Notes under the pieces: generated by a model
The model's database searches: none
Seen by the model: the letters and a program-made list of their open reading frames with translations, nothing else
What the model was told of the DNA's origin: nothing
Program-made: the position numbers and the translations under genes
Assembly: GCA_950295325.1 (NCBI GenBank)
Contig: OX485806.1
Location: forward strand, 45,131,169 to 45,195,168
Source of the DNA: Polytrichum commune
Lineage: Eukaryota; Streptophyta; Polytrichopsida; Polytrichales; Polytrichaceae
Direction of reading: 5' to 3'
Length of the DNA stretch: 64,000 bases
Shown here: positions 20,248-41,880 of the stretch, piece by piece
How the letters are laid out: each line of letters opens with the position of its first letter
Numbering within the stretch: position 1 is the stretch's first letter

Positions 20248-20480
20248 GCATAGAGCGGAGAGCAGAGAGGAAGTAAAAATAGTAAAATGCTTAGACTAAA
20301 TTTAGAAATGTTTTCAAAAAGATTCGGATATACCCAAAATATTCCAGATTCTCCCAAAAATAGTAAAAATTTGTGACCTATTTCCGTGAAATGTTTAGGT
20401 CATAAATTAAATAAAAATACCCTGAATTTGAAATGGTCTCATTGAGTTTGGAAACCGTGAAGTGCTAAAATGATAGGAAA
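20226..20480 (+). repeat. 3' end of gag-like element (repeat R1, plus copy)
   Basis: The last codons (GGACAACACAGCTATGTGA), the AGAGCGGAGAGCAGAGAGG tract and the following AT-rich 200 bp recur in inverted orientation at 45360-45620 and, more diverged, at 34430-34575. A 45-bp piece is also inside the palindrome array at 24854-24898. This defines a repeated 3' segment of the element: C-terminal codons, GAGCGG tract, then an AT-rich tail with CCTATTTCCGTGAAATG. Confidence 0.6.
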
Positions 20481-20935
20481 GTTGTGATATAATAGATAAG
20501 TAAATGATAAAAACCAATGTTGATCCCAAGAAAAAATAAATGAAAAAGTTTTTTTGAGATTGGTATAATTGAAGAATGAGTTAATCAAAATACAAAGGGC
20601 GACCAACTTGCTTCGTTTTTATTTCATCACTTTTGTCTTTGTCTTATGTGTGAGTCAACTCTAGAGCTTGGACTCCAACAATTATTGTTTGTGGTCGAAG
20701 AGATTATCTTGAGCTGAATATATATATGAGGACATAATTTAGACTCATACCCAATATGAATGTAGAGACACACGCACACAATGGGAGAGGAGAGAGACAT
20801 GTTTGTTGGCCTAGGATGGGAGAAGGAGATTAGAAGTATAGGAGATCCCCATGTTCCCTTTAATTCATCGCCGGAACATGACATAGATGTTGCAAATCGA
20901 TATAGAGATATACACACGTACTTAATTACCTCCTC
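20481..20935. other. AT-rich non-coding DNA
   Basis: No supported coding frame or repeat. Confidence 0.35.
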
Positions 20936-22500
20936 TTCCCATTGAACTCAGCACTGAGGCACCTTCGGTATTCATGCCACGCCATAATTTTACTTACAAG
21001 CATTAAAAAATGCCTTTCTCCCGCGTGAAATATATTCACACCTTCACTAGTTGAGTTCCAAACACACCACCCTATCAACACATTCCCACAAGTTCTTTCC
21101 CAACATAATACAACACAATGCTAACTCCTACGCTACACCTAAGCTGGCCTCCTTAATTAATTATCCAATGCTCTAGCATGTTAAGTGGATGCCTAAACCC
21201 AAACTCCCAGAACCTCAACTGCCGCCCTTCAATCCTGGTCTTCCGACCAGCAACTCCAGTACTCTGCCTAGGTACAGAGTAGTGTTGATCTGCATCAATT
21301 GCACTCACCCTCGAAGAGGCCCAGTTCACCTAGGGCGCCCACCAAATGCAGACAGCAGCTTTGCTGGGAAAATGCCTCTCTACCTCCCCGAATCCTCTTG
21401 GTAGCTCCAAGCCCAGCTCCTTGTTGTCTTCCCCTCGCCTCGAACGGCTTCACCTCTGCCTCAGTATACACCCAAGGGATAAACTCCCGTCCCCTGTTGC
21501 TGCATTCTCAGAAGAGCCCAGGCATGCTTCAACTCACTGCGGCGAAATGCCCAGAGGTGAATTGCTCCTCCGAATTAACCACCTTTTCAGAGGGAGAGCC
21601 TTGCGCAGATGCACTGGACCAGGGCGATCTCCCTCCCAAAATTCATTTATTTAGCTCTCAACACCTTCACAACTGCGTGGGATTAATGCCATGATTGTTA
21701 CCTTAAGCAGCTGGAATTCAACATGAATAAATGTCGATCTGGCCCTCCTCCATTTCTTCGACACACAAGTCTTAATTTCTCCGCCCAGCTTGGCCACTGG
21801 AGGAAAGAGCCTCCCGACAGAGCTGCAACCGCAATACCTCACAGCGATTCCTGACCCTCCGTTGGCCTTTGCAGACCTTTCCCTCACAAGCAACCAGCTC
21901 CTTGTCGCCACTTTGATTGCAGCGATTCCGCCACTTAATCTGGCAGGGTTTTCACCCTCTGTGTAGCAGGCCACCGTCCAAACACCTTAGATCGAGATTG
22001 GCACTTCCGAATTCAGGAGTTGGAGATTGTAATTCGCACCTGCCCAGTCTACGACAAACACAACTAGCGCCTTGCTGGCCTCGTATGGTGAATGCTAAAA
22101 CCCGAATCAAAAATCTAGCAGGGGCTCTGCCCCACTGTCGCCGCTCCTTGTTTTTGGTGTTCGGTGAAGCGAGAGAAAATGAGAGAGGAGGCCCCTGGAC
22201 TTGCCGGACCTCTTTCCTGGGCACCCCAAAAATCTAGATGCCTCGTCCCTTCAAAACAAGACCCCCTTCCTTAAACAGGCAGACCTCGAATCCAAACCAA
22301 CAATATTTTTTAAGCCCGACACCCATAATCCTAACCTAAATCCCTTGACTTTAAGCGTCACATAAAATCTAATTGACTAATTACTTGTTGTTGGCCTTCT
22401 CCCTTACATTTCACACAGTCTCACATAAAACTTAAATCCCCTTAACTTTTAGAACTCTAGAACTCTCTAGATTCTATCTAATTCAATCAAAACACTATTG
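20936..22500. other. C-rich block with shadow frames
   Basis: C- and CT-rich on the plus strand with several overlapping frames of 90-130 codons in all directions. None shows a recognisable domain. A similar CT-rich block occurs at 61500-62400, with comparable phrases (GGCGAGGTCAGAGAG versus GGTGAAGCGAGAGAA). The two may be diverged LTRs of one element family, but I could not align them confidently by eye. Confidence 0.3.
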
Positions 22501-22506
22501 CACCCG

Positions 22507-23204
22507 TTAAAATGTTATAAACGTTAAATTGAAATGTGGGCACCATATTGGGCTCACATAACTGGCGACATCAGGGGATGGATCCAAAATCTCTTTCTGC
22601 AAGAAAATTGTCGCTTGCAGATCCCCGCCAGGTTGCATGCGCTTAACCAAGTCGACCCCACTACCAGGGCTAACCTCCGACATCTTGAAAACAAAAACTT
22701 TGTCCGTCTCGTCACCCTGGCCTGGGAATTGATTATGCTGGACATAGGCCCAAGTGTTGACACCTCTAAGCTTGGCGATGCCATCCATAACTCCCAACCT
22801 ACGTAAGTATTTGAAGGGTGTAATCTTGTTTCGGAGGTGGGGGGAATTCAACTCCTTGCACCGATCAAAAATGGGCTAAGTTCTTCCAACGAAAGAAGTT
22901 GATGAGGGTCACTATCATTACGAAGGAGGAACTCACCCACAAGATTTTTGCTGGCTTCAAGAACAATTTTGGTATGAGTGGATTGGGGCGTTCTCTTGAC
23001 GTGCTCCTCGATGAAGACGTCGATGCGCTTGCGGCTATCTCTCCAGTTGCCAACCTTGACGGGGTGCCGATGGTAGCCCAGATGAATACATGCACGCTGA
23101 GTGGTGTCACTGCCGCGGACGTAGAAGATTTTGGCGTGGCATAGAGCAATGCAACTGGGAGGCTCCTTACAGATCCTACACACTAGGGTGGAGAAGGTAG
23201 GCAC
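22507..23204 (-). pseudogene. Transposase-like N-terminal fragment
   Basis: Two adjoining minus frames, 23204-22848 and 22851-22507, read as one protein interrupted by a frameshift near 22850. The first has a Cys-rich opening (LVCRICKEPPSCIALCHAK), then FYVRGSDTTQRACIHLGYH followed by RHPVKVGNWRDSRKRID. This HLGxHxHPV arrangement recalls the zinc-binding N-terminal region of plant Mutator-type transposases. The second has KYLRRLGVMDGIAKLRGV, a WAYVQ.NQFPGQGDE segment and VFKMSEVSPGSG. The fragment stops at the edge of the CT-rich block, so that block may have interrupted or replaced the catalytic part. The protein looks genuine because motifs and composition continue across the frameshift. 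The family name is tentative. Confidence 0.5.
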
Positions 23205-23470
23205 GGGACCACCAATGGGAAAGGACTCTTTGGTGAATCCATCAAATTCAGTATCATTGACTCAGGAGGTACAATGAAAACGTTGGAGGTAGTCGCAATG
23301 ACGATTATGGCACTCGAGGTGGCCAACTCAGGTGGATGAACAAAAAGCAAAGGCTAAGTCATTGCTAATGTTGGTGGTTTGGATTTTGGTCCAGACATGG
23401 CTGTCGTAGCGTTTGTCCATGCCGTCCATTGACCCGATTCCGAGAGGGTGGTGGAGGGGTAGGATTTTGC

Positions 23471-23692
23471 TGTGGGACCTAGTTTTGAATGGGCATAACT
23501 TCCTCAATACTTTCGTGAATGTTGCAAGTGAGTAGTCCATTGACATCTACAAGAAATGTAGATGAAGATGGAGTGGTCGTTTGTTAGAATCAAAGATTGT
23601 ATGAGGAAGTTATGATGGTCTGAAGTTTGTACGGGCTTCTAGGCCTACCGGCTAAGGGAAAATGTATACTTGGCCCCAACTCTTGGTAGGGA
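23471..23692 (-). repeat. LTR-like spacer segment, first copy of a 546-bp duplication
   Basis: The segment from TGTGGGACCTAG to TTGGTAGGGACC is repeated almost exactly at 24017-24240, an offset of 546 bp. Its reverse complement is clearly related to 41276-41490, an LTR-like block that has a TATA box on its plus strand. The copies inside array A are therefore minus-oriented pieces of the same retroelement sequence. Confidence 0.7.
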
Positions 23693-24016
23693 CCCTCTCG
23701 GTTCCGAGAGGGTGGTGGAGGGGTAGGATCCCCACATCAAATTTTGCTTTGCGACCTAGGTTTGATGTATGTGTGATGTTTTTGTATGTGTAGATGATAT
23801 GTCACATAGACACCCTCTCGGAACCGAGAGGGTGGTGGAGGTGTAGGATCCCCACATCACATTTTGCTTTGGGACCTAGGTTTGATGTATGCGTGAGATT
23901 TTTGTTTGGGTATATGATATAGGAGAGTATATGTTTGTGTATATGATATGTCACATAGACACCCTCTCGGAACCGAGAGGGTGGTGGAGGGGTAGTATCC
24001 CCACATCAAATTTTGC

Positions 24017-24240
24017 TGTGGGACCTAGTTTTGAATGGGCATAACTTGCTCAATACTTTCGTGAATGTTGCAAGTGAGTAGTCCATTGACATCTACAAGA
24101 AATGTAGATGAAGATGGAGTGGCCGTTTGTTAGAATCAAAGATTGTATGAGGAAGTTATGATGGTCTGAAGTTTGTACGGGCTTCTAGGCCTACCGGCTA
24201 AGGGAAAATGTATACTTGGCCCCAACTCTTGGTAGGGACC
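24017..24240 (-). repeat. LTR-like spacer segment, second copy
   Basis: Nearly identical to 23471-23692, with a few differences such as TCCTCAATAC versus TGCTCAATAC. It is bounded by palindromes on both sides, so the duplicated module is palindrome plus LTR fragment. The right-hand palindrome has a damaged left arm. Confidence 0.7.
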
Positions 24241-24853
24241 CTTGTTAGGGTTCCGAGAGGGTGGTGGAGGGGTAGGATCCCCACACTTGATTTTGATCAT
24301 TTGAGCTAGGTTGCTTGTATGTGTTGAATGATTATTGGTGCAGATAATATGTGCAAGTTAAGGAGTCTGGTAGTATAAGGAGGCCAAATCTTGATTAGTT
24401 AGGTTAGGTTGAAAATAATTTCAAGTTAAGAGGTTGGGACATATAGAGACATATATAGGATCTTCACACCTGATTTTGATTGTTGAGGCCGAGAAGCTAT
24501 TATGTAGAAAATGTTTGTAATCCTTGATTTAGTTACAAGGTAGGGGATTGGGTGCGCCTTAGACCCTCTCGGTTCCGAGAGGGTGGTAGGGATAGTATAT
24601 GTGAACCTGATTTTAGAATGTTAAGGCCGAGATGCAGGTATGTGTTCCATGTTTGAAACTCGTTCAACTAGTTAAGAGGTAGGGGGTTGGGTGCAACTAA
24701 GACCCTCTTGGATCCGAGAGGGTGGTAGGATAGTATATGTGGGTTATATTTCTGATTGTTAAGGCCGAGATGTTGGTATGTATTCCATGTTTGAAACTCG
24801 TTCAACTAGTTAAGAGGTGGGGGTTGGGTGCAACTTAGACCCTCTCGGTTCCG

Positions 24854-24898
24854 GGACAACACTCCTATGTGAGCGGTGAGCGGAGATTTAAAGAGCGG
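24854..24898 (+). repeat. 45-bp gag 3'-end fragment inside a palindrome
   Basis: The palindrome starting at 24839 is split after its CCG. A 45-bp insert reading GGACAACACTCCTATGTGA and continuing with GCGGTGAGCGGAG separates it from the closing AGAGGGT at 24899. The insert matches the last codons and GAGCGG tract of the gag-like ORF (20226 onward and 45617). Confidence 0.65.
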
Positions 24899-25788
24899 AG
24901 AGGGTCTAAGTGGCGGTTGTTTGGACCAAATTTTGACTTGAATGGGTTGTAATATAGATGTGTATATATCTGGAATAGATAAATTCATATGTTGAAATCC
25001 TTTTGAGTTGCACTAGGATCCGACCCTCTCGGAACCGAGAGGGTCTAGGTGGCGGTTAATTGGACCAGATTTTGACAAGAATGAGTTGTAATATGGATGT
25101 GTATGTATGTGGACTACATAGACTCATATGTTGAAATTCTTTTGGAATGCACTAGGATTCGACCCTCTCGGAACCGAGAGGGTCTAGGTGGCGGTCGATT
25201 GGACCAGATTTTGACAAGAATGAGTTGTAATATGGATGTGTATGTATGTGGACTACATAGACTCATATGTTGAAATTCTTTTGGAATGCATTAGGATTCG
25301 ACCCTCTCGGAACCGAGAGGGTCTAGGTGGCGGTCGATTGGACCAGATTTTGACAAGAATGAGTTGTAATATGGATGTGTATGTATGTGGACTACATAGA
25401 CTCATATGTTGAAATTCTTTTGGAATGCACTAGGATCCGACCCTCTCGGAACCGAGAGGGTCTAGGTGGACCAACTTTTGACAAGATTGAGGTGCCTTGT
25501 GTATGTGTATGTATGTGGACTAGGTAGGTTCCTTTGTAGAAATTGTTTGAGTATGCCCTAGAGTTCGACCCTCTCGGAACCGAGAGGGCGTAGGTGGTGG
25601 TTGTTTGGACCAGATTTTGACTTGAATGGGTTGTAATATGGATGTAAATGTTTGTGGACTAGCTAGGTCCATATGTTGAAATTCTTTGGGAATGCACTAG
25701 GATCCAACCCTCTCGGAACCGACAGGGTCTAGCTGACGGTTGTTTAAACCTAATTGTGCAAAATCTGGTGCTTCATTACTACACCAAA

Positions 25789-27387
25789 ACCCTCTCGGTT
25801 CCGAGAGGGTGAAATTCTAGCCCCAAAACAAACCAGTTGAACCTAAGAACAAACTAGTTGGAACTATCCACACATACAAGCTAACAACCTTATTGTGCAA
25901 AATCTGGTGCTTCATTACTACACCAAGACCCTCTCGGTTCCGAGAGGGTGAAAATCTACACCACAAACAAACTAGTTGAACCTAACGACCAACTAGTCGA
26001 ACCTATCCACACATACAAGGTAACAACCTTAATGTGCAAAATCTAGTCCTATATTACTACACGGAGACCCTCTCGGTTCCGGGAGGGTGAAATTCTAGAC
26101 CACAAACAAACTACTTGAACCTAACGACCAACTAGTTGAACCTATCCACACATACAAGCTAACAACCTTATTGTGCAAAATATGGTGCTTCATTACTACA
26201 CCAAGACCCTCTCGGTTCCGAGAGGGTGAAAATCTAGACCACAAACAAACTACTTAAACCTAACGACCAACTAGTTGAACCCATCCACACATACAAGCTT
26301 TCAACCTTAATGAGCAAAATATGGTGCTTCATTACTACACAAAGACCCTCTCGGAATCGAGAGGGTGAAATTATAGCCCCAAAACAAACCAGTTGCACCT
26401 AACGACCAACTACTTGAACCTATCCACACATACAAGCTAACAACCTTAATGTGCAAAATCTGGTCCAATATTACTACACAATGACCCGAGAGGGTAAAAT
26501 TCTAGACCAAAAACAAACCAGTTGAACATAAGAACAGACTAGTTGGACCTATCCACACATACAAGCAAACAACCTTATTGTGCAATACCTGGTCCTATAT
26601 TTCTATCCTAAGACCCTCTCGGTTCCGAGAAGGTGGAATTCCAACACACATACAAGCTTTCAACCTAAATATGCAAATTTTGGTCCTATATTACTCCTTG
26701 AAGAACCTCACGGTACCGACAGGTTGAAAATCCAGCCCAAAAACAACCCCGTTGAACATATGAACCACCAAGTTCAACCTATGTCCACAAACAACCTTTC
26801 AACCTTAATGTTCAAAATCTCTTGCTTCATTACTACACAAAGACCCTCTCGGTTCCGAGAGGGTGAAATTCTGGAACACAAACAACTAGTTGGACCTAAC
26901 GACGAACTAGTGCACCTCTCCACACAAACAAGCTAACAACCTTTATGTGCAGAATCTGGTCCCATATTTCTATCCTAAGACCCTCTCGGTTCCGAGAGGG
27001 TGAAATTCTAGCCCACAAACAAACTAGTTGAACCTAACGACCAACTACTTCAACGTAACCAAACAATGAAGCTATGAACCTTCAAAAATAAAATCTAATC
27101 CTTGACACCTATACTAAGACCCTCTCGGAACCGAGAGGGTCTAATTCCAGCCACCAAGCACACTAGTTGAGCCTAACAACCAACTTGTTGAACCTATCCA
27201 CACATACAATCTAACAACCTTAATGTGCAAAATTTGGTGCTTCATTACTACACGAACACCCTCTCGGTTCCGAGAGGGTGAAATTCCAGCCGTAGAACAA
27301 ACCAGTTCAACCTAACAACTAACACCCTTAGTGTGCAGAATGTAGACCTTTACTTCTATCCAAAGACCCTCTCGGTTCCGAGAGGGT
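25789..27387. repeat. Internally inverted block of array A
   Basis: In this block the palindrome centre is nearly always TT. The spacer (CACACATACAAGCTAACAACC, TGTGCAAAATCTGGTGC) is the reverse complement, in diverged form, of the spacer in the flanking blocks (ACCAGATTTTGAC, GTATGTGGACTAG). A run of about a dozen units is therefore inverted within the array. The switch points lie near 25750 and between 27390 and 27500. Confidence 0.75.
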
Positions 27388-27689
27388 GAAATCCTTGCCC
27401 ACAACAAACTAGTTGAACCTATGAACCACCTAGTTGAATCTATCCAAACATACAAGCATTCAAACTTAATGTGCAAAATCAATTCTTATATTTCTATCCT
27501 TAGACCCTCTAGGAACCGAGAGGGTGTAGGTGGCGGTTGTTTGGACCAGATTGTGGGAATTATGTATGTGGACTAGGTAGGTACTTAGGTTGAAATTTTT
27601 TTGTGTGTGCATTAGAGGGAGACCCTCTCGGAACCGAGAGGGTCAAGGTGGTGATAGTATGGACCAAATTTTGCCAAGTGTAGGGCGGC

Positions 27690-28332
27690 CTCATGGAGTG
27701 CACTATTCATTAAAACCAAGTATCACGTGCGTGCATGCCCCTTATTAAAATACCCCTGTATACATTTTATTTTTGCTAAAATCAAGCAATATACTTACAA
27801 ATCTCATTGCTTCAAAATACATTTCCATACGTACACAAGGGTCCAAAACCAAATACAGAAATTGTATATAACATGTGTACAAATGTTTGGAAATGCAAAA
27901 ATATGGCCCTATTATATGTATACTATCAAATCATGGATTTTTAGTTATAAAGTCGTTAAAGACTTTTTCATCACTTGGATGAAGTTCGTACGTGTCTGTT
28001 TCAACATCATACGTCAAATTGGCCAAAGCAATAACCGTATCCAATTCTACCATAATATGATCTGTGAGATCATAACTCCAAATAAGGTTGTTACTTAGTG
28101 GATGAAAAAACGCATGATTCTTGGTCTAGGTCTAACTTGAACACGTAAACGCATAAACCCGTACTTTACATATATTTTTCTATAGCCTTATCTCCAGCCT
28201 CATGTACATCTACTTCCTGCTTAATAGCAATATGTCTCTTGTACGTACATTTTGTACATGCTTGTTCTAAATAATACCCCATTTGTGCACGCACGTGTAT
28301 ATTTACAGTACTTGAACAGTGCACTCCCTGGA
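27690..28332. mobile_element. TIR element with 8-bp target duplication, inserted in array A
   Basis: The target duplication AGGGCGGC flanks it at 27682-27689 and 28333-28340. Uninterrupted array units read TTAGGGCGGCTTG at this point, so the insertion site is certain. The ends are CTCATGGAGTGCACTATTCA and, in reverse complement, TCCAGGGAGTGCACTGTTCA. Imperfect similarity extends inward to an ACGTGCGTGCA motif at both ends. 8-bp duplications and CA.GG-type ends fit the hAT superfamily. Inside, on the minus strand at about 28098-27946, is a remnant coding WSYDLTDHIMVELDTVIALA and YELHPSDEKVFNDFI, which is the same protein as in the element at 55684-56391. Confidence 0.85.
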
Positions 28333-30705
28333 AGGGCGGCTTGTGTATGTGAATGTATGTGGACTAGGTAGCTACTTAGGTTGAAATTTTTTGTGTCTGC
28401 ACTAGAGTGAGACCCTCTCGGAACCGAGAGGGTCTAGGTGGTGATAGTATGGACCAGATTTTGGGAATTATGAATGTGGACTAGGTAGGTACTTAGGTTG
28501 ATATTTTCTTGTGTGTGCACTAGAGTGAGACCCTCTCGGAACCGAGAGGGTCTAGGTGGTGATAGTATTGACCAGATTTTGACAAGTTTAGGGCAGCTTG
28601 TGTATGTGAATGTATGTGGACTAGGTAGCTACTTAGGTTGAAATTTTTTGTGTCTGCACTAGAGTGAGACCCTCTCGGAACCGAGAGGGTCTAGGTGGTG
28701 AAAGTATGGACCAGATTTTGGGAATTATGAATGTGCACTAGGTAGATACTTAGGTTGATATTTTCTTGTGTGTGCACTAGAGTGAGACCCTCTCGGAACC
28801 GAGAGGGTCTAGGTGGTGAAAGTATGGACCAGATTTTGGGAATTATGAATGTGCACTAGGTAGATACTTAGGTTGATATTTTCTTGTGTGTGCACTAGAG
28901 TGAGACCCTCTCGGAACCGAGAGGGTCTAGGTGGTGATAGTGTTGAACAGATTTTGGGAATTATGTATGTGGACTAGGTAGGCACTTAGGTGGAAATTTT
29001 TTGTGTGTGCACTAGAATGAGACCCTCTCGGAACCGAGAGGGTCTAGGTGGTGATAGTATGGACAAGATTTTGGGAATTATGAATGTGGACTAGGTAGGT
29101 ACTTATGGTGAAATTTTTTGGTGTGTGCACTAGAGTGAGACCCTCTCGGAATCGAGAGGGTCTAGGTGGTGATAGTATTGACCAGATTTTGACAAGTTTA
29201 GGGCGGCTTGTGTATGTGAATGTATGTGGACTAGGTAGGTACTTAGGTTGAATTTTTTTTTGTGTGCACTAGAGTGAGACCCTCTCGGAACCGAGAGGGT
29301 CTAGGTGGTGATAGTATTGGCCAGATTTTGACAAGTTCAGGGTGGCTTGTGTATGTGAATGTATGTGGACTCCCAAGGGACTTCGGTTGAAATTGTTTGG
29401 GTGTGCACTAGAGTGAGACCCTCTCGGAACCAAGAGGGTCTAGGTGGTGATAGTATGGACTAGATTTTGACAAGTTTAGGGTGGCTTGTGTATGTGAATG
29501 TATGTGGACTAGGTATGTTCTTAGGTTGAAAATGTTTGTTTGTGCACTAGAGTGAGACCCTCTTGGAACCGAGAGGGTCTTAGTGGCGAATGTATGGACC
29601 AGATTTTGACAATTGTGAGGTTCCGTGTGTACGTGTATGTATGTGGATTAGCTAGGTTCATATCTTGAAATTCTTTTGGAATGCACTAGGATCCGACCCT
29701 CTCGGTTCCGAGAGGGTCTAGGTGGCGGTTGTTTGGACCAGATTTTGACTAGAATTGGGTGCCTTGTCTATGTGTATGCATGTGGACTAGATAGAACCAT
29801 ATGTTGAAATTCTTTGGAAATGCACTAGGATCCGAGCCTCTCGGTTCCGAGAGGGTCTAGGTGGCGGTTGTTTGGACCAGATTTTGACAATAATAGGTTG
29901 TAATACGGATGTGTATGTATGTGGACTGGGTAAGTTCATATGTTGAAATTCTTCTGGAATGCACTAGTGTCCGACCCTCTCGGTTCCGAGAGGGTCTATG
30001 TGGCGGTTGTTTGGACCAGATTTTGACAATAATGGGTTGTAATATGGATGTGTATGTATGTGGACTAGGTAAGTTCATACGTTGAAATTCTTCTGGAATG
30101 CACTAGTGGCCGACCCTCTCGGAACCGAGAGGGTCTAGGGTGCAATTGTTTGGACCAGATTTTGACTAGAATTGGGTGCCTTGTCTATGTGTATGCATGT
30201 GGACTAGATAGAATCATATGTTGAAATTCTTTGGAAATGCACTAGAATCCGACCCTCTCGGCACCGAGAGGGTCTAGTGTGCGGTAGTTTGGACAAGATT
30301 TTGACTTAAATGAGGTTCCTTGTGTATGCGTATGTATGTGGTCTAGCTATATTCATATGTTGAAATTCTTTGTGTATGCACTAGAATCCGACCCTCTCGG
30401 GACCGAGAGGGTGTTGCTTGCAGTATTTTGGACCAGATTTTGACTAGAATGAGGTGCCTTTTCAATGTGTATGTATGTGCACTAGTTAGGTTCATATGTT
30501 GAAATTTTATTGGAATGCACTAGAGTCCGACCCTCTTGGAACCGAGAGGGTCTTCCTTGCGGTATTTTTGACTAGATTTTGACTAGAATGAGGTTCCTTT
30601 TGTATGTGTATGTGTGTGGACTAGCTAGATTCATATGTTGAAATTCTTTGTGTATGCACTAGAATCCAACCTTTTCGGACTACGTTTATGTTTGTGTTAT
30701 CTTAG

Positions 30706-33110
30706 TTTGAGAAAGGGGTTGAGGGTGAGATCGCCTCATTTGAAAATGAATGCTTCATCGACATTGACTGGGTTTCTATGGAAGATCTTTTCCAACCTGT
30801 TTATTTTGTCGAGCATTGAAGGCTCATTTTGTGAAACAAGGCTTGTAGAGTATATTTTGATGACAAGGGTGTCTTAAAGTTCACCAAAGGGCTCGATCTC
30901 ATGGAGTTCGAGGAAGGCCCCTTAGCTATCAAGCGTGTTGCTTACCGGTAATCATTTTTTCTTTTTCTTTTGTCCTTCATATCTTCGTTTCTTTTCACTC
31001 CATTTCTTTGTTCTAATTTTCTTCACTTTGTAGGTACATTCACCATGAGCTTGTCGTAAAGAATGCTCTTCCTTCTTCGTCCTTGACGTCTTTCCTTGAC
31101 GAGTGGATCGATGACAACTCAAATCTTAGTGTATACACGCCCATGCAACTTGAAAAATTTCCACGCGTGCATTTAGTCGCTGGTGGTTGGTGCTTGGATT
31201 GTTCTCGTGGATTTGTTCATGACGTAGAAGAACCCCTCTACAATAGCCTCACTTCCTCTGTCCTGAGGTAATTGAATTGGAGGAAGAGCCGGAAAAAGAT
31301 GAGAATCCGGCTCCTCCCACCAATGACAAAGAGGTTGCACCGGTGAAGGCCAAGGCCAAGGCCAAGGCCAAGGCCAAGGGTAAGAGGGTGGCATCTAGTT
31401 AAGTGTCCACTCGTTCAACGCATTCCAACTACGACAGTTGTCGGAAGTCCAATGGCAACTCCTTCTGCCCCTTCTCGGGACCATGTTCCAGCTCTTTCCC
31501 ATAGCGGTGTCACCATTTCCTCCGTGCCATGCAAGAGGAAGGCCGTCGCTCCAGATACCTCCGCAACTTCTCTCTCTTTGATTAAAAATGTCCACATGGG
31601 GAGCTCATAGAGGATCTCATGCGGTCCAAGGTTCCCCCTCCGGCTTACCGCCGTATCCAAGAATTCCTTACTAAGGTTTGTGGGACATTCTATTGTTTTC
31701 TCGTTCATTCATTCTAATTCAACAATTATTTTCTTATATTTTCCTTTGGATTTTGGATTTGCAAATTGGAGCGGGTCGTACTCGTCCTAATAGCAAGCCT
31801 AAGGTGCATACAGGGCTTGATCTACTCCTCGCAGATATGCCGGAGAACCTTTGTGTGTCTGGCATCTTGTCATCATCGTCCGATGTTCCTATATGGAACA
31901 AGCGTTCTTCGACTTATTTTGAGGTTCTCTTTACCTTTGCTAACGCCAACCTTCATGACGACGACATTCTTGTCTTTGCACATGCCGCTGATCCTGACGT
32001 GTCTAGATCCATACATAACTGGGCACATACAGAGGACTTCTACGTTGCCGAAGACTGGTTTGGCATGAATGACCTCGATCTCCAATCGCATACTAATCCA
32101 CCCGAGTTGGTAATTTCTTTCTTGCCTCATCATTTTGTATTATTATCTTCTTTTCCTTGCATTTTTGTATTCCTAATTCTACCCTTCTCATTTCTTGCAG
32201 ACTCGCAAGTTCTTCATCAAGGTGCTCGTGCGTAATGATTCTGTTTTGAATGTCCGGACCTCGACCTTCAAAGACATGGGTTACAATCTCAAGAGAGATG
32301 GTTGGCTCAATAGCTTCCCCGATTCGAAGAACTAGTCGGTGAGGGAAGACGGAGTGCCTTGGAGAGGTGCTCGTCAAAAGCGCCCTAAGTTATTTTCCAT
32401 CATTTTCTCCGCCCTCACTGACAATGACGACATTATCATGGATTGGCAATGTGGCCTTAGATTGTTTTTCTTTTTCTTGTTTCTCATGACTTTGTTCTTT
32501 GTTGTTTTTTTTTACTTGTTTCATTTCCCATTAATTCCCTTATGCTCACCTTCTCGTATTTCGTTCTTCTAGGAGGTTCCGTCATTGCATGTTGATCCAT
32601 TCAACGCCATATTATGGCGCTTGAGTCGGATATCGATATCTTCAAGTCCATCATCTTCCCTATGCGTGAGACTGAGCAAGAACACACTTATCAGCATGCT
32701 GCCCCACAACGAGGATTGGTTTTTGCTCCTCCTCCCCGGAAGATGGTGAAGCGCAATTTTAATTTGTTATGTGCGTAAGTTTGTTCTTGGCTTCTTACTT
32801 GCTTGCTTGCATTTCTATCTTCTCGATTCCAGATTTTTGGCATGTGTTAATTTTTTTTGTTTTCTCGTTCTATATTTTCAAAGTTCATATTGAGAGCCCG
32901 ATTGGTGTTCTTAATGCGGACATGTTTGCAACCCCTTCGACGACGTTTGAGCTCCCTTCGTATGCTGCTGACCTTCCCCATCTTTTGGCGGAAGCGTCGT
33001 CCCCACCTCCTAGTCACACCCGCCCTTTCAACAAACTAGTTTTGGATTTCCTAGACATAGAGGCCGAGCAGGGCGAGGATAGTGATAGACATGGTAGTCC
33101 AAGTTTTTGA
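30706..33110 (+). pseudogene. N6/N4 DNA methyltransferase-like gene, intron-containing, broken
   Basis: Exons can be followed with good splice sites: 30706-30947, intron 30948-31033, then 31034 onward with a Lys/Ala linker (KAKAKAKAKAKG). Another donor (AAG|GTTTGT) lies at 31675. The exon from about 31772 to 32109 is followed by an intron at 32110-32200. The exon from 32201 is followed by further exons to TGA at 33108. The 31.8-kb exon has GLDLLLADMPENL at the place of the catalytic D-P-P-Y motif IV, then DDDILVFAHAADPDV. The next exon has WRGARQKRPKLFSIIFSAL followed by NDDIIMDWQCG, then GSVIAC and RHIMALESDID. This matches the permuted order (catalytic motif before the AdoMet-binding G-motif) of the beta-type N6_N4 methylase family. 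In-frame stops at 32332 and 32593 and frameshifts near 31262 and 31400-31600 show it is dead. The altered DMPE motif also suggests loss of catalysis. Confidence 0.65.
31349..31381 (+). repeat. Hexanucleotide repeat (AAGGCC)n
   Basis: Five to six tandem AAGGCC units code for the Lys-Ala linker of the methyltransferase-like gene. It is a likely hotspot for length change. Confidence 0.8.
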
Positions 33111-33322
33111 CTACGCCTCGTGCGTTTATGTTTGAGTTTTTTTATAAGTTCATTTGTGGAATTTTCATGTGCCTTTTGCAAACCACATTCAACTCCTTCT
33201 TCATCTTATGTTGTCGTTTGTTTTCAATTGCTCTTGAAGGTTGAAGGCTTGTATTAATTTTGTACATATGTTCAACTACTTGGTTGATAGATTCAACTAC
33301 TTTGTTGTTTGGCTGAAATTTG

Positions 33323-33720
33323 ACCCTCTCGGAACCGAGTGGGTCTTAGTGTAGGAATCAAGGACGAGATTTAAGATAGGTTCGGGTGGATGGGGTTGTA
33401 TCTTTTTTGGTTAGGTTGATATTTCTCAAGTTAAGGTGTTGGGCAATGTAGGGACCCTGTTGGTTCCGAGAGACTATATGTGTGAACCGCATTCTCAACT
33501 TTGATTCATATGATGAATCTTTTTGTTTTTTGGATGCTCTCACTTCGGAAGTGAGACTAGATGCGTAGGCCAGATTCTCAACTTTGATTCATATTAAGAA
33601 TGTTTCTGTTTTTTTGGATGCTCTCACTTCCGAGAGCCTAGATGGATAGGCCACATTCTCAACTTTGATTCATATGTTGAATATTTGTGTTTTTTGGAGG
33701 GCTCTCACTTCGGAAGTGAG
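33323..33720. repeat. Array tail with altered palindrome
   Basis: A near-perfect family-1 palindrome starts at 33323 and a damaged one near 33454. Three following units, with spacer TCTCAACTTTGATTCATAT at about 33493, 33569 and 33655, carry a different dyad instead. At 33539 and 33701 it is TCTCACTT-CGG-AAGTGAGA, and the copy near 33621 is a hybrid. The sequence after the dyad (CTAGATGGGCAGG) corresponds to CTAGGTGG in the main array, so the units are homologous although the palindrome itself has changed. Confidence 0.7.
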
Positions 33721-34429
33721 ACTAGATGGGCAGGCCAGATTCTCATTTAGGCCACATTTATTTGGATTCTCATTTTTTAACTGGATACACATTTTTGTAA
33801 CTCTTGAGTTTGACACCTAACTTCACCTACATTTTCTCGGCCAATCAAATATTTTGTAAAACATTCCGCTCCTTCATCAGAAGGTCTAAGAATACTTGGA
33901 AAGAATACCCTAGCTACTTGGGGCAATGTATCACTTTGGACAAAATCATTTAAGAACACTTAAGTACATTTAAGGGCTACTTCACACACGAGCCAAGAGC
34001 TGTGACCATGAATTGTGAGAGCCCACGAGAAGGTGTCCAAAGGCCGTCCCAAGACACCTCCAAAATTATGTAGTGTGGTCACGGATTTTCAAGTCTAGTA
34101 TGAAGCCATATGTGACCAGGCCCTCATTCAAATGCTATTTCAATGGATTTCTATTCATGTGAGTCTTCACACATGATAAAAACAAAATAAATCAACGGTT
34201 GTGAATATTCAAAATGATAGGGTCTTTTGATTTTGTGTTAGGCCTACCTCCCAAAGGTGGATTCTTATGTTGTTGTTCGATTTCAATTGATGACATCAGC
34301 CCTAATTTAATATGAAACCATTTGAAACCTAGACTATAAGATCTTTGATAACAAATACATTCTTCCACGCCTTTAGGTTCTACTTGTTTCTCGAACCAAG
34401 ATGCGTTATAATCTCCACGGGAATGGGGT
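33721..34429. other. Non-coding with one minor minus frame
   Basis: A 60-codon minus frame (33959-33777, with LPQVARVFFPSILRPSDEG) looks somewhat protein-like but belongs to no family I recognise. It may be a relic exon. Otherwise nothing is supported. Confidence 0.2.
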
Positions 34430-34575
34430 GCCTTTCCAACAAATTGAATTCACTCTATCTATAAATTCCACGGAAATAGGCACCGCTTGTCCTAAAATTA
34501 TCCAACAAAGTCAAAATTTTCTGCTCTCCAATCTCCGCTCTCCGCTCTCTGCTCTACGCTCACACTACTAAGTTT
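34430..34575 (-). repeat. Repeat R1, diverged inverted copy
   Basis: TTCCACGGAAATAGG and the tract CTCCGCTCTCCGCTCTCTGC correspond in reverse complement to the 3' segment of the gag-like element at 20226-20480. Confidence 0.5.
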
Positions 34576-36528
34576 CGCATTCGAAGGAGGGAGCAGCTTA
34601 GAAGAAGCACCGCTCTTCTTAGCTTAGGACGGTAGTTAGATTAGTTAGGCAGAATAGAGATAGGAAGATAGGACTTAGGAGTTTTGGGAAGTTGAGGAAT
34701 AAAATTCTCCCTTGGATTTTGTCAGCGGAAAATCGGGATCTTGATCCGGGAAATCCGGGAGGATGGAACCAGTTAGGGTTTTTTTAGGGGCCGCCGCCTT
34801 CAGATAAGGGATTTTGGGCCTCTACTTAAGGCTGAATAAGGAGCTGGATAGGGGTTCCTTCTCCATTGTTGTACTTTGATTGCTCCAACTCTAATATACT
34901 CCTTGATTTCTCACTCCTTGACTTTCCTTGATTGATTTTGTGTACGAATGATTCGGAGATCGTTAGCGGAGGAGAGAGAGCATGAGGGGATAGGAGTTCC
35001 GGATAGGACATGGGAGAAGAGACCCGGATCAGATCTAGTGCCTTGCGAATCCTCTCTGTGGGTAGTGGGAGGGAGACCTCACTATTCCGGATGGTTGACT
35101 AACGTCTAGGTGGGATAGCCGCTGGGAGGATAAGGTGAGATCCGGAAGGGATCCGGACTTGCGCCGTCCGAGCTTCTAAAGAGGTCCCACCGCCCTTAGA
35201 CGGACCAATCATGAAAGTGGTACGGATCGCCCAGTTAGCTCAGATTTAGTAGAGCCCAAGGTAGTGGTAGCCGGATCAATCTGTTAGGAGGAGGAGGGAA
35301 GTACAGGAACAGTTAGAATTCCGGGTCGGAGGCCATCTCCGGAGTGTAGTGGGAAGGGGACCTCATTGTTCCGAATGTCTGGGTAACGTCTAGGTGAGAT
35401 AGCCGTGGGGAGGACTGGGTAAAGATCCGGAAGGGATCCGGTCTTGCGCCAATTTGATCTTCTGAAGAGGTCTCACTGCTTTTGGACGGGACAATCCGGA
35501 AAGTGGTACAGATCACCCACTTATCCCCTCGAGTCAAATCTCCGGGTGGAATCCGGAATACTCCAGTCGTTGTAGTCCTAAGATATAATCCGGATTTCCC
35601 TGTGTGACCTACCAAGACGGATTTGGCCAATCCGGATTGGTTGAAAGGGAATATCCAAATCCCAATCTTATAAGGGACGTCTTCACCGGAAGAAACCAAC
35701 TATTCTAGAGGGTAGAACGTAAAGGGGTAAATCTGGACCATAGGGGTGAGTAAGTATTATAATTAGGACCTAAAGATACAATCCGGAAAGGCAAACTCCG
35801 GAAGAGGAAGAGTTTCCAAAAGACCGGAAAGCCGGAAACCGGGGTTTCCGGAAATTCGGCTAAGGAGTGGAAGATAAGTGGGTACGGGGAGTTCTCGACC
35901 TCCTACACTTCACAAAATCCCTGGACAATACTAGGGTCATCCGGACAAAACCGGATTAGGCACTTAAAAACGCCAATCCGGATATTTTGGTGTTCGTGTG
36001 TTCCCACAAATCACATACGTGAGCAATAGCGCAAAGCAAGTAGGCTTAGTGATTCATTGATGTGGGAGCCGGTAAATGCCCGGAAGTCCGGATTAACAGC
36101 CAAACCGGTCTTTAGAATAGGAATAGGTAGTCTATTTTGGTTAGGTTAAGGGAATTTAGGATAGCTTAGCCGTTTTAGGAAATCACTTTTTGCACGTCCG
36201 TCCAATCGCAATAATATGGTTAAAACGGCCCTCTTAGCCTAGCCGGAACCGTACCGAAAATACCGTTAAATAACTGCTTGCTCCGAAGCAACCGGAATGA
36301 TGGCAGTTGTACGGGAATAGGGCGGTTACCGTAAACGGTTACCCTAGGCGGTTACGGGCCGAACTCGAGGAGGACGGGCCCACTTAAAGGAAATCAGCCC
36401 TCCCCTTGAGTCATTTGCGTAGTGCAACTGTGCCGAGAGAAAGAATGGTGAAGTGTTTTCTTTTTGTCGAATCATCAGCAATTGGATTGCTGAGATTATG
36501 CTTTAGGACGGATAGGAATTAATGCACA
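34576..36528 (+). promoter_or_regulatory. Upstream region of gag-like copy 2, TCCGGA-rich, with internal duplication
   Basis: No gene is supported. TCCGGA and CCGGAA recur throughout, as in the gag-like coding regions. A ~285-bp direct duplication is visible. GTAGTGGGAGGGAGACCTCA followed by AACGTCTAGGTGGGATAGCC (from about 35061) matches GTAGTGGGAAGGGGACCTCA followed by AACGTCTAGGTGAGATAGCC (from about 35346). Each copy ends in a GTGGTAC(A/G)GATC.CCC motif. Near 36190-36360 there is a cluster of MYB-core motifs (CGGTTACCGTAAACGGTTAC) followed by a leader like that of copy 1. The whole may be an LTR. Confidence 0.45.
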
Positions 36529-38403: not shown

Positions 38404-38505
38404 GTTGCAACCCTTGCTAGTCTCCTTAGCAATTTTGCCAATTTTCCTTTCTAGCAAAGGTTACGAGCGCAAATCCTTCGCATTCCACCATACTAATGGT
38501 TCATA
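38404..38505 (+). repeat. Direct repeat bordering array B, left copy
   Basis: GTTGCAACCCTTGCTAG and onward through CCAATTTTCCTTTCTAGCAA and GGTTACGAGCGC to ACTAATGGTT recurs at 40850-40947 on the other side of array B, in the same orientation. Confidence 0.8.
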
Positions 38506-38519
38506 CTATCACCACCTAG

Positions 38520-40753
38520 ACCCTCTTGGTTCCGAGAGGGTTTCACTCTAGTGCACACCCAAACAATTTCAACCGAAGTCCCTTGGGAGTCCACATACAT
38601 TCACATACACAAGCCACCCTGAATTTGTCAAAATCTGGCCAATACTATCACCACCTACACCCTCTCGGTTCCGAGAGGGTTTCACTCTAGTGCACACACA
38701 AAAAATTTCAACCTAAGTACCTACCTAGTCCACATACATTCACATACACAAGCCGCCCTAAACTTGTCAAAATCTGGTCAATACTATCACCACCTAGACC
38801 CTCTCGATTCCGAGAGGGTCTCACTCTAGTGCACACACCAAAAACTTCCACCATAAGTACCTACCTAGTCCACATTCATAATTCCCAAAATCTCGTCCAT
38901 ACTATCACCACCTAGACCCTCTCGGTTCTGAGAGGGTCTCACTCTAGTGCACACACAAAAAATTTCCACCTAAGTGCCTAGCTACCTAGTCCACATACAT
39001 AATTCCCAAAATCTGTTCAATACTATCACCACCTAGACCCTATCGGTTCCGAGAGGGTCTCACTCTAGTGCACACACATAAAATTTCAACCTAAGTACCT
39101 ACCTAGTCCACATACATTCACATACACAAGCCGCCCTAAACTTGGCAAAATTTGGTCCATACTATCACCACCTTGACCCTCTCCATTCCGAGATGGTCTC
39201 CCTCTAATGCACACAAAAAAAAATTCAACCTAAGTACCTACATAGTCCACATACATTCACATACACAAACCGCCTTAACCTTGTCAAAATTTGGTCAATA
39301 CGATCACCACCTAGACCCTCTCAGTTCCGAGAGGGTCTCATTCTAGTGCACACACAAAAAATTTCAACCTGAGTACCTACCTAGTCCACATACATAATTC
39401 CCAAAATCTAGTCAATACTATCACCACCTAGACCCTCTCGGTTCCGAGAGGGTCTCACTCTAGTGCACACACATAAAATTTCAACCTAAGTACCTATCTA
39501 GTCCACATACATTCACATACACAAGCCGCCCTAAACTTGGCAAAATTTGGTCCATACTATCACCACCTTGACCCTCTCCGTTCCGAGAGGGTCTCCCTCT
39601 ATTGCACACACAAAAAATTTCAACCTAAGTACCTACCTAGTCCACATACATTCACATATAGAAGCCGCCCTAAACTTGGCAAAATTTTGTCCATACTATC
39701 ATCACCTTGACCCTCTCCATTCAGAGATGGTCTCACTCTAATGCACACACATAAGATTTCAACCTAACAACCTACCTAGTCCACATTCATAATTCTCAAA
39801 ATTTGTTCAATACTATCACCACCTAGACCCTCTCGGTTCCGAGAGGATGTCACTCTAGTGCACACACAAAAATTTCAACCTAGGTACCTACCTAGTCCAC
39901 ATACATTCACATACACAAGCCGCCCTAAACTTGTCGAAATCTGGTCAATACTATCACCACCTAGACCCTCTCGGTTCCGAGAGGGTCTCACTATAGTGCA
40001 CACACATAAGATTTCAACCTAAGTGCCTACCTAGTCCACATACATAATTCTAAAAATCTCTTCAATACTATCACCACCTAGACCCTCTCGGTTCCGAGAG
40101 GGTCTCACTCTAGTGCACACACAAAAAATTTCAACCTAAGTACCTACCTAGTCCACATACATTCACATACACAAGCCGCCCTAAACTTGGCAAAATTTTG
40201 TCCATACTATCATCACCTTGACCCTCTCAGTTCCGAGAGGGTCTCACTCTAGTGCACACACAAAAAATTTCAACCTGAGTACCTACCTAGTCCACATACA
40301 TAATTCCCAAAATCTGTTCAATACTATCACCACCTAGACCCTCTCGGTTCCGAGAGGGTCTCACTCTAGTGCACACACATAGAATTTCAACCTAAGTACC
40401 TGCCTAGTCCCCATACATTCACATACACAGTCCGCCCTAAACTTGGCAAAATTTTGTCCATACTTTCACCACCTTGACCCTCTCGGTTCCGAGAGGGTCT
40501 CCCTCTAATGCACACACAAAAAATTCAACCTAAGTACCTACCTAGTCTACATACATAATTCCCAAAATCTGTTCAATACTATCACCACCTAGAGCCTCTC
40601 GGAACCGAGAGGGTCTCACTCTAGTGCACACACATAAAATTTCAACCTAAGTACCTACCTAGTCCACATACATTCACATACACATGCCGCCCTAAACTTG
40701 GCAAAATTTGGACCATACTATCACCACCTAGACCCTTTCGATTCCGATAAGGT
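38520..40753. repeat. Palindrome satellite array B
   Basis: Eighteen units of the family-1 palindrome, almost all with a TT centre, start at 38520, 38659, 38798, 38916, 39037, 39176, 39315, 39432, 39571, 39710, 39827, 39965, 40082, 40221, 40338, 40477, 40593 and 40732. Spacing alternates between 138-139 and 116-121 bp. The short units lack a ~21-bp piece (between CATACATTCACATACACAAG and CCGCCCTAAACTTG). Spacer sequence is the reverse complement of the 28412-29588 part of array A, so the two arrays form a long-range inverted repeat. The unit at 40593 has an AA centre in an otherwise TT array. Confidence 0.95.
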
Positions 40754-40849
40754 CTCATTCTAGTGCACACCAAAAAATTTCGTCATAAGTACCTACCTAG
40801 TCCACATTCATAATTCAAAATTTGGTTTCTCCGGGTTGTCTCCCTATCT

Positions 40850-40947
40850 GTCGCAACCCTTGCTAGCCCCTTAGCAATCTTGCCAATTTTCCTTTCTAGC
40901 AAAGGTTACGAGCGCTAACCCTTCGCATACCGCCATGCTAATGGTTA
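40850..40947 (+). repeat. Direct repeat bordering array B, right copy
   Basis: Matches 38404-38505 over about 95 bp with a few differences (TAGCCCCTTAGC versus TAGTCTCCTTAGC). Confidence 0.8.
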
Positions 40948-40999
40948 GCTCCTCCTACCCCGGACCTTATAGTTCATAGGAGGGAACCAGCCCTCCTAT

Positions 41000-41880
41000 T
41001 TTGCTTTTGGGACTCACCCCTTAATCGGTAACCCATTCCTAGATGTGGACCTCCATCCATGGAAGTACAATCCTATGTTGATCATCACGTTGCCGTAGCA
41101 ACACTACAACAACCCGAAGCGTACTTGGCAACTATGGCCTCACATTGGGCCAATGCCCATGGAGGCCGTGACGTTTGGCCTCGGGTGGGTGAGGCCACAC
41201 CACCTCACCCATATAAGCCCCTAAGACTCTACGCGGGGCCCCTACCCCACTGTCAAGAGACCTCTTGTCTCTCTACCAAGAGTTGGGGCCAAGTAGACAT
41301 TTTCCCTTAGCTGTTGGGCCTAGAACCCCCCCAGCAGCTTCAGACCATCATAACTTCGTTGTATGATGTCAAATGCTAACAAGCGACCACTCCATCTTCG
41401 TCTACGCTTCACGTAGATGCCGATGGACTCCTGAATTGCCCCATTTAGGCAAGTATTGAGGAGGTTATGCCTGTTTGAACCTTAGCAGTCCCAGGAATCA
41501 CACCCAGGCACTGCTGTACCAGGGCGCTGTCCCGGGACAGCGCCCCACTCAAATGGTCATAACTCCTAGCTCACACCTGCAATTGAGGTCTTCTTGAGCG
41601 TTCTAGAATCACCATGCCATGAGCTATGCATAGCTCTTGGCCTTACCCTCATGCCTCCTAGTCTCCGTGGGTGGGAGGCGTTCCCAACGCCCGGGGCCCT
41701 CACCCACACTAAGATCACTTGGGCCCTCTCACCAACGGCGCCACAAGTCCCGGGTGTCACTCCGGGGTCCCCCTTGTGCCCGTGGTGTTTCGGGCACTCC
41801 TCATGGAGAGGTGCGCGACACTCACCCCCACTAAAAATGCTTAACCGGATGTTTTTGTCGATCATGTGTTCCAACAATTT
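41000..41880 (+). promoter_or_regulatory. LTR-like block downstream of array B
   Basis: GC-rich sequence with a TATA box (ATATAAGCCC at 41211), then CT-rich sequence. The segment CAAGAGTTGGGGCCAAGTAG through CATCATAACTTC to CGTAGATGCC corresponds in reverse complement to 23471-23692. Several open frames on both strands at 41566-41902 carry no domain and are treated as chance. I read this as an LTR or its U3/R part that belongs to the same element as the arrays. Confidence 0.45.

Follow-up and report, generated by a model that had tools for sequence, protein, structure and literature searches.

A stretch of 64,000 nucleotides of the moss Polytrichum commune (hereafter the window: contig C4, OX485806.1, positions 45131169-45195168, in a genome of 408 Mb with seven large contigs) carries an old, decayed copy of a mobile element. 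Comparison with its relatives shows the predicted element to be a multicopy DNA transposon of 14-23 kb with terminal inverted repeats (TIRs), which carries a second gene, an accessory methylase-like gene and arrays of a palindrome with the lineage-specific core CTCGG-NN-CCGAG. In the window, what is left of the accessory gene is a gene-like stretch at 30703-33110, a decayed remnant of its 3' part; the gene is spliced, and its C-terminal half shows homology to DNA methylases. We propose tentatively, and with somewhat less than even confidence, that the element encodes a DNA-binding protein that would act on the element's own arrays and counter silencing, by analogy with the VANC proteins of the Arabidopsis VANDAL transposons.

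Searching the genome with the central exon as a protein query gave at least 150 relatives of the methylase gene (the best 150 of 1002 candidates scored), which are spread over all seven large contigs and of which many have open frames; with the DNA query, the best 40 of 133 candidates were scored. Thirty family loci, picked by hand and not at random, with the window's near relatives over-represented, were read. The sister copies of one fuller relative, L008, share a common right end (..GAGTTTCCC) and left end (GGACGACAC..). From the best 40 of 394 and the best 40 of 326 candidate end matches, a left flank could be matched to its right flank in 15 copies, about 15-23 kb long, and an identical 10-bp target duplication was found in 14 of them, the copy at C1:28.03M being without; a 9-bp duplication, read from one copy, was replaced by 10 bp after the 15 copies had been compared. 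Four of the 13 first right ends (L045, L052, L055 and L056) had no left partner among the matches listed and stand outside this set. At least 12 of the 14 duplication-bounded elements enclose a copy of the gene among the matches listed, the exceptions being those at C1:2.25M and C3:14.05M. According to these features, namely TIR ends, target duplications and upstream palindromes or half-site arrays in 20 of 26 copies (see below), the gene does belong to a palindrome-bearing element, as an earlier note on this DNA had suggested. The second gene, a putative transposase, lies at the left on the opposite strand. Its protein is 94-99% identical in three further copies (L058, L081 and L082), and the gene in L013 has one premature stop, which is not found in three sister copies. 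Target-site duplications of Mutator-like elements (MULEs) range from 9 to 11 bp, and the 10-bp duplication suggests the Mutator group. Classification as a MULE through the transposase was tried and abandoned, the product of the second gene matching no Pfam family and not matching a small hidden Markov model (HMM) of five open reading frames (ORFs) from MULE regions of the same genome.

The window exons, as four proteins, matched no Pfam family, and relatives were therefore used for the test of methylase homology. The methylase exons of L008 reached 12.6 bits (E 0.14) against PF01555, under the cut-off of 26.7, and gave weak methylase matches in PHROG (best 0.0023); L010 did not match PF01555. 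Five places exceeded the cut-off when the whole genome was searched with PF01555: two are chromosomal (C1:9662150 and C4:44111740), and the other three are on C10 and C12, both of them small contigs. The chromosomal places are the loci L028 and L029, ORFs of 577 amino acids that read D-I-P-Y-G and D-I-P-D-G, respectively, and both I-L-D-L-(S/F)-V-G-T-G; in hmmscan they reached 32.4 and 35.3 bits against PF01555 (cut-off 26.7), so that distant relatives pass. An HMM built on 18 copies of the family, that of the window among them, matched both loci across the domain in the same motif order (best domain 44.8 bits, E 8e-12, for L028 and 48.4 bits, E 7e-13, for L029, with the search size set at 20000). 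A profile (A2) that combines four rows of the family with its distant relatives L028, L029, L030 and L031 was searched against 177635 PDB sequences, where it matched DpnA-like adenine methylases (7.4e-9), CcrM (4.5e-7, profile 3-216), MboIIA (8.7e-4) and a cytosine-N4 methylase (0.001), with arginine and other methylases in the weakest rows (E about 1). In addition, L028 matched MTase_II in PADLOC (3e-9). The succession of a D-x-P motif, PWRGARQKRP and IIMDWQCGGGSVIAC follows the order of permuted N6_N4 methylases, with motif IV before motif I. Because of the profile matches to the PF01555 relatives and to the PDB methylases, the predicted C-terminal domain is shown by homology to descend from bacterial-type beta-class (N6/N4) DNA methyltransferases. 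Two claims of the earlier note are borne out here, the permuted beta-type order (by motif alignment and the CcrM match) and the presence of an intron-bearing methylase relative in a plant genome; its expectation of an HMM hit held for the distant relatives and the family profiles but not for the window copy.

Two further ideas on origin were tried and rejected. For a viral origin, 74 stretches of a viral collection matched a pattern with profile A2, and the single tblastn match, L037 (21% identity), proved to be ordinary phage DNA; its three methylase-like ORFs read D-P-P-Y or S-P-P-Y by eye, and its architecture is not similar. For a ParB-like N-terminal half, to which the motif WEGNHRLTAW had led, there was no Pfam, relevant PDB, PADLOC or viral match. 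The matches of C10 and C12 to PF01555 are strong (98.5 and 68 bits), and these contigs are likely bacterial contamination of the assembly.

The catalytic motif of the family is altered. At the motif IV site, D-x-P-E-N stands in 14 of the 18 family copies, several of them near-identical, and P-P-Y in none; among the distant relatives, L030 reads DLPEG and L031 DIPEN, and the DIPYG of L028 is nearest to the canonical form. PMC8885841 gives SPPY, DPPY, NPPY and DPPW/DPPF as forms of this motif, and none of the 18 copies has the catalytic (D/N/S)-P-P-(Y/F/W). Motif I, the S-adenosylmethionine (SAM) site, is conserved in the family as D-W-Q-C-G-x-G-G-S followed by ESD. With glutamate in the place of the motif IV aromatic residue, methyl transfer by the accessory protein is probably lost or altered. 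Ratios of nonsynonymous to synonymous substitution rates (dN/dS) were taken from 24 preselected pairs out of 120 possible. For the methylase exons (exons 8-10) they are 0.08-0.19 in the 15 between-lineage pairs shown and 0.41-0.72 in five pairs within the window clade, as decaying copies would show; three of four other close pairs gave 0.33-0.37 and one 1.21 (at a synonymous rate, dS, of 0.017). For exons 2-7a, the finite ratios between lineages are 0.07-0.30, several pairs being saturated. Because dN/dS between lineages is low, the altered methylase domain is, by this measure, under strong purifying selection between lineages and is maintained by it. The DMPEN that had been noticed in place of D-P-P-Y is present in the window, but it is not the decay of one copy, D-x-P-E-N being usual across the selected family.

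The association of the gene with palindromes was counted in 26 loci, four others (L009, L016, L030 and L031) having less than 800 bp of upstream sequence read. The palindrome CTCGGNNCCGAG lies upstream of the first detected exon in 18 of the 26 copies, and arrays of the half-site CCGAGAGG lie upstream in L010 (35 sites) and L027 (160 sites), giving 20 of 26 with arrays or palindromes, where Markov-shuffled sequences give an expectation of 0.00 palindromes and at most 0.40 half sites. Genome-wide, there are 850 exact copies of the window palindrome and 2137 of the L008 type, and none of the reversed controls. The placement of clusters rests on the first 50 sites listed for each palindrome type. 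On C1, three of the four listed window-type clusters (48 sites) are no farther than 15 kb from one of the 17 gene copies among the matches listed, a proximity equalled by 0 of 200000 random placements, with a 15-kb limit chosen after seeing the data. Of the six L008-type groups, two of which are 6.5 kb apart, four have a family gene or an element end at a distance of no more than about 4 kb, and the other two have neither that near. No palindrome was found within about 2.6-3.3 kb on either side of L028 and L029, the two loci nearest to a canonical motif or profile, which goes against the expectation of intact D-P-P-Y paralogues among palindromes.

Palindrome types tend to follow the lineages of the gene. 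Arms of CCTCTCGG are found in the window clade, L024 (5/8) and L025, arms of GGCCTCGG in the L008 clade (21/21 in L008, 41/51 in L011), and arms of GGTCTCGG in L012. A second word, CCAGATTTT, is present in most window-clade copies and in L025 and was not seen in five L008-clade loci, L023 and L024; CCAGATTT occurs 157 times in the L027 arrays. Around and between the exons of L080, whose exon 8 is about 41% identical to that of L008, there are eleven palindromes, four of them GGCCTCGG-armed and six placed between exons. Transitions at CpG sites, compared as a candidate sign of hypomethylated arrays, were 0.9-1.6 times as frequent as at the remaining C/G positions for six of the seven pairs; the seventh comparison, a short one, gave 4.6 times (4 of 36 sites). 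A 101-bp tandem array with GGCCAGATTTTC and without the CCGAGAG core, upstream of L026 (L044 1-503) and at L010 6141-6501, is perhaps a further target type.

The whole window copy of the element extends over 20229-34578 on the plus strand, and its ends (left GGACAACAC..TATGTGAGCATAGAGCGGAGAG, right CTCTACGCTCACACTACTAAGTTTC) match those of duplication-bounded sister copies. Its TIRs lie at 20229-20275 (left, plus strand) and 34515-34578 (right, minus strand), and no target duplication was seen by eye between the left flank CTTCTAGAAT and the right flank ATTCGAAGGA. A remnant of the second gene, the putative transposase, lies at 22588-23261 on the minus strand and is 65-73% identical, by tblastn, to the gene on the minus strand of L013. 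The accessory gene, on the plus strand, has homologues of exon 6 (30706-30948; 48% identity to the L008 exon, E 7e-21) and exon 7 (31035-31679; a GGWCLD block and a basic linker), followed by exon 8 (31765-32109; methylase domain, with DMPEN at the position of the catalytic D-P-P-Y), exon 9 (32201-32455; PWRGARQKRPKLFSIIFSALTDNDDIIMDWQCG, one in-frame stop), exon 10 (32575-32775; GGSVIAC.SIQRHIMALESD, the rest of motif I with the SAM-site glycines, one in-frame stop) and a homologue of exon 11, the C-terminal tail (32881-33110; by-eye comparison with L008 4148-4370). The L008 gene has about eleven predicted exons, and among nine exons searched, nine are stop-free in L022 and eight in L024; exons 1-5 of such fuller relatives were not found in the window copy. 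By eye, its splice sites are mixed, some borders being kept and others changed (the exon 8 acceptor is AA and the exon 9 donor is lost). Because exons 1-5 are absent, in-frame stops occur and some splice sites are changed, the window copy is a truncated, dead pseudogene.

Within the window, CTCGGNNCCGAG occurs 41 times (0.01 expected from shuffles), always within 23.7-40.6 kb. Palindrome-bearing tandem arrays with orientation changes inside occupy 23410-27640, and a 118/139-bp tandem array on the plus strand, with units carrying GACCCTCTCGGNNCCGAGAGGGTC (many of them mutated) and mostly CCAGATTTTG, occupies 28339-30679. At the border between array and gene, a half palindrome at 30668-30678 (plus strand) keeps only the mutated left arm AACCTTTTCGG, the array being left at the dyad centre, and a single palindrome with one arm mismatch follows the gene at 33322-33345. 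The 120 bp across this border align end to end in six of the seven near relatives fetched (L001-L006, 88-99% identity); the seventh, L007, starts at exon 8 and is without the border. The best reading of the junction, from these alignments, is that exons 1-5 were deleted long ago and that the array thereby came to adjoin exon 6. Insertion of the gene into a palindrome was rejected because L001-L006 have the same border and the array of the fuller relatives precedes the first exon. The cut at the dyad centre that the earlier note described is real, then, but its gene set "precisely" between palindrome units is a shared deletion junction and not an insertion; the next palindrome is where it was placed, though "intact" was too strong, and the spliced gene between them exists as exon-like blocks (30706-33110), truncated and with stops.

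Several other observations concern the window copy and its surroundings. Three 81-bp repeats with another palindrome, CTCACTTCGGAAGTGAG, lie between the gene and the right end (33490-33745) and are absent at the corresponding place of L006. Beyond the right end, a second, inverted palindrome array (38503-40816) is probably a fragment of another copy. An inverted exon copy at C4:45125095-45125445, just beyond the window, is 100% identical to window 31760-32110, 38 kb apart, and suggests a recent local inverted duplication. Window-type copies crowd C4, with 33 of the 40 listed DNA matches there and 32 between 41.9 and 59.0 Mb; our guess is that this region is non-recombining or pericentromeric. 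A repeat of about 970 bp, 92-93% identical between window 40849-41823, L009 (1651-2623 and 5767-6742) and L012 (3640-4609), breaks up the L009 accessory gene at two places and in L012 separates exon 9 from exon 10. The palindrome GGGCGCTGTCCCGGGACAGCGCCC, found in L012 and L022, seems to lie within this repeat. An ORF of 700 amino acids with a DUF7869 match of 137 bits (L015 936-3035), situated upstream of the L010 array, may belong to a different transposon. Elsewhere in the genome, fourteen light-harvesting genes with equal scores form a tandem cluster of about 95 kb (C5:1.75-1.85 Mb). In agreement with a moss origin, a light-harvesting protein from the genome reached 480 and 478 bits against the PDB chains 8htu_U and 7xqp_a, which are Physcomitrium structures; among the 60 of 77 matches listed, no other chain of ordinary length exceeded 447 bits, while a long chain of 620 residues, 9vfj_2, reached 547.

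In the mechanism that we propose, the accessory protein would bind the palindromes of its own element, with the methylase fold and the N-terminal half reading the DNA, and would protect that element from silencing in a self-targeted way, most likely by displacing or antagonising host cytosine methylation. Many clustered sites could give specificity through their density, as for the VANC proteins. The association of gene and palindromes is itself strong, and an action of the protein on the palindromes is plausible. A number of observations weigh on the other side. The pairing is not universal because palindromes are missing upstream of six copies (L007, L017, L021, L026, L028 and L029), which have no more than a single half site there, and three more (L005, L023 and L025) have a single upstream palindrome. 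Many units are mutated, with only 22/60 perfect in the window, 25/84 in L011/L014 and 16/22 in L013/L008. Exon 8 of L020 (C1:24603700-24608100) is of the L008 type (93%), yet its palindromes are CCTCTCGG-armed (5/5); exons 5-7 of this copy are not L008-like (54-64%), and it may be a mosaic, providing a natural test of which half of the protein goes with the palindrome. In addition, the scanned parts of the protein showed no recognised DNA-binding domain, and the anti-silencing role is drawn from the VANC analogy. In its fullest form, the proposal would make the family a second, independent case in plants of sequence-specific anti-silencing encoded by a transposon, in which a captured methylase of bacterial type, having lost its ordinary catalytic motif, turned into an anti-methylation factor that reads or blocks, and co-evolves with, its own palindromes; this we regard as rather doubtful.

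Other explanations of the same arrays differ in what the protein would do. It could assemble the element ends for transposition after binding the arrays, as other plant accessory factors do, with silencing uninvolved. Accessory genes of this sort are common in plant transposons, and gene and arrays are linked here in one mobile unit with intact ends; however, the one copy read end to end (L013 with L008) measures about 15 kb and has its palindromes at 6.6-10.0 kb, with several kb between them and either end, array lengths vary greatly and the six L080 palindromes lie between exons, and such a cofactor seems unlikely. An active but unusual methyltransferase, writing N6-methyladenine or N4-methylcytosine at or near the palindromes as the epigenetic mark of the element, would agree with the conserved motif order and SAM-site glycines, the purifying selection on the domain, the D-I-P-Y-G retained by L028 and the palindromic form of the targets, which fits symmetric methylation. 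Nevertheless, the Y/F/W of the motif forms given in PMC8885841 is glutamate in most copies, the first P of P-P is replaced, and L028 and L029 are without palindromes, which makes a writer decidedly unlikely.

A functional link might also be lacking altogether. Satellites grown by slippage and hitch-hiking with the gene would account for freely varying unit lengths (118, 139, 96, 127 and 307 bp), for the many mutated units and for the six of 26 copies without upstream palindromes or half-site arrays, but the CTCGG/CCGAG core recurs in lineages that share just 41-65% identity with L008 in exon 8, while unit lengths and sequences differ, and we find this explanation quite improbable. Chance capture of a host methylase fragment, as in Pack-type elements, would suit the truncated pseudogene of the window; the many copies and open frames on seven large contigs (at least 150, the best 150 of 1002), the purifying selection and the gene copies enclosed by at least 12 of the 14 duplication-bounded elements refute its simple form and leave it highly improbable.

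Transposon-borne methylase-like domains are also known from DIRS-type elements, which bear one resembling N6-adenine methylases; these differ from the moss element in being retrotransposons and in the group of methylase, and we know of no palindrome arrays in them. The bacterial and phage beta-class methylases (CcrM, DpnA-like, MboIIA) share with the moss gene the order of motif IV, a TQKP-like motif (here WRGAREKRP) and motif I, whereas the moss gene is multi-exon, lies inside a eukaryotic transposon and has an extra conserved N-terminal half and D-x-P-E-N. In the literature consulted we met no description of methylase genes in Mutator-like or moss transposons or of anti-silencing in mosses, which is weak evidence of absence, most subscription papers lying outside it. 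The VANC family has a DUF1985 domain and, to our knowledge, is not related to methyltransferases; no Pfam family, and thus no VANC-type domain, was found in L008 exons 2-7a, a scan that omitted exon 1, the exon 7 linker and exon 11. Another bacterial amino-methyltransferase in a eukaryote, likewise tied to transposons and tandem repeats, is N4CMT of bdelloid rotifers; according to PMC8885841, it is a host gene with a catalytic SPPY and has a part in the silencing of transposons, whereas the moss gene is itself transposon-borne and lacks the canonical motif.

For a conserved protein, a changed catalytic site and clade-typical palindrome arrays in one mobile unit, VANC is the closest precedent. 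If the moss protein binds its arrays, self-targeted anti-silencing, which a single group of Arabidopsis transposons is known to have, would have arisen again in another plant lineage and from quite different material, and the pairs of protein clade and palindrome type would let their co-evolution be read from many copies. The amino-methyltransferase fold of bacteria, with a motif that is non-canonical and conserved, would also enter the epigenetics of plant transposons. In either system related elements carry related but different motifs. As described in PMC5735166, VANC21 binds YAGTATTAY, which is tandemly arrayed in the non-coding parts of VANDAL21, introns included, and brings about a loss of methylation; the related VANC6 acts on different motifs, according to PMC5735166 and PMC10398659. 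The likeness extends to a DNA transposon with an accessory gene and arrays of short motifs in non-coding DNA and introns, while the VANC motif is of another kind than the palindromes, binding and demethylation are shown for VANC and predicted by analogy for the moss protein, and the moss accessory domain derives from a bacterial-type DNA methylase.

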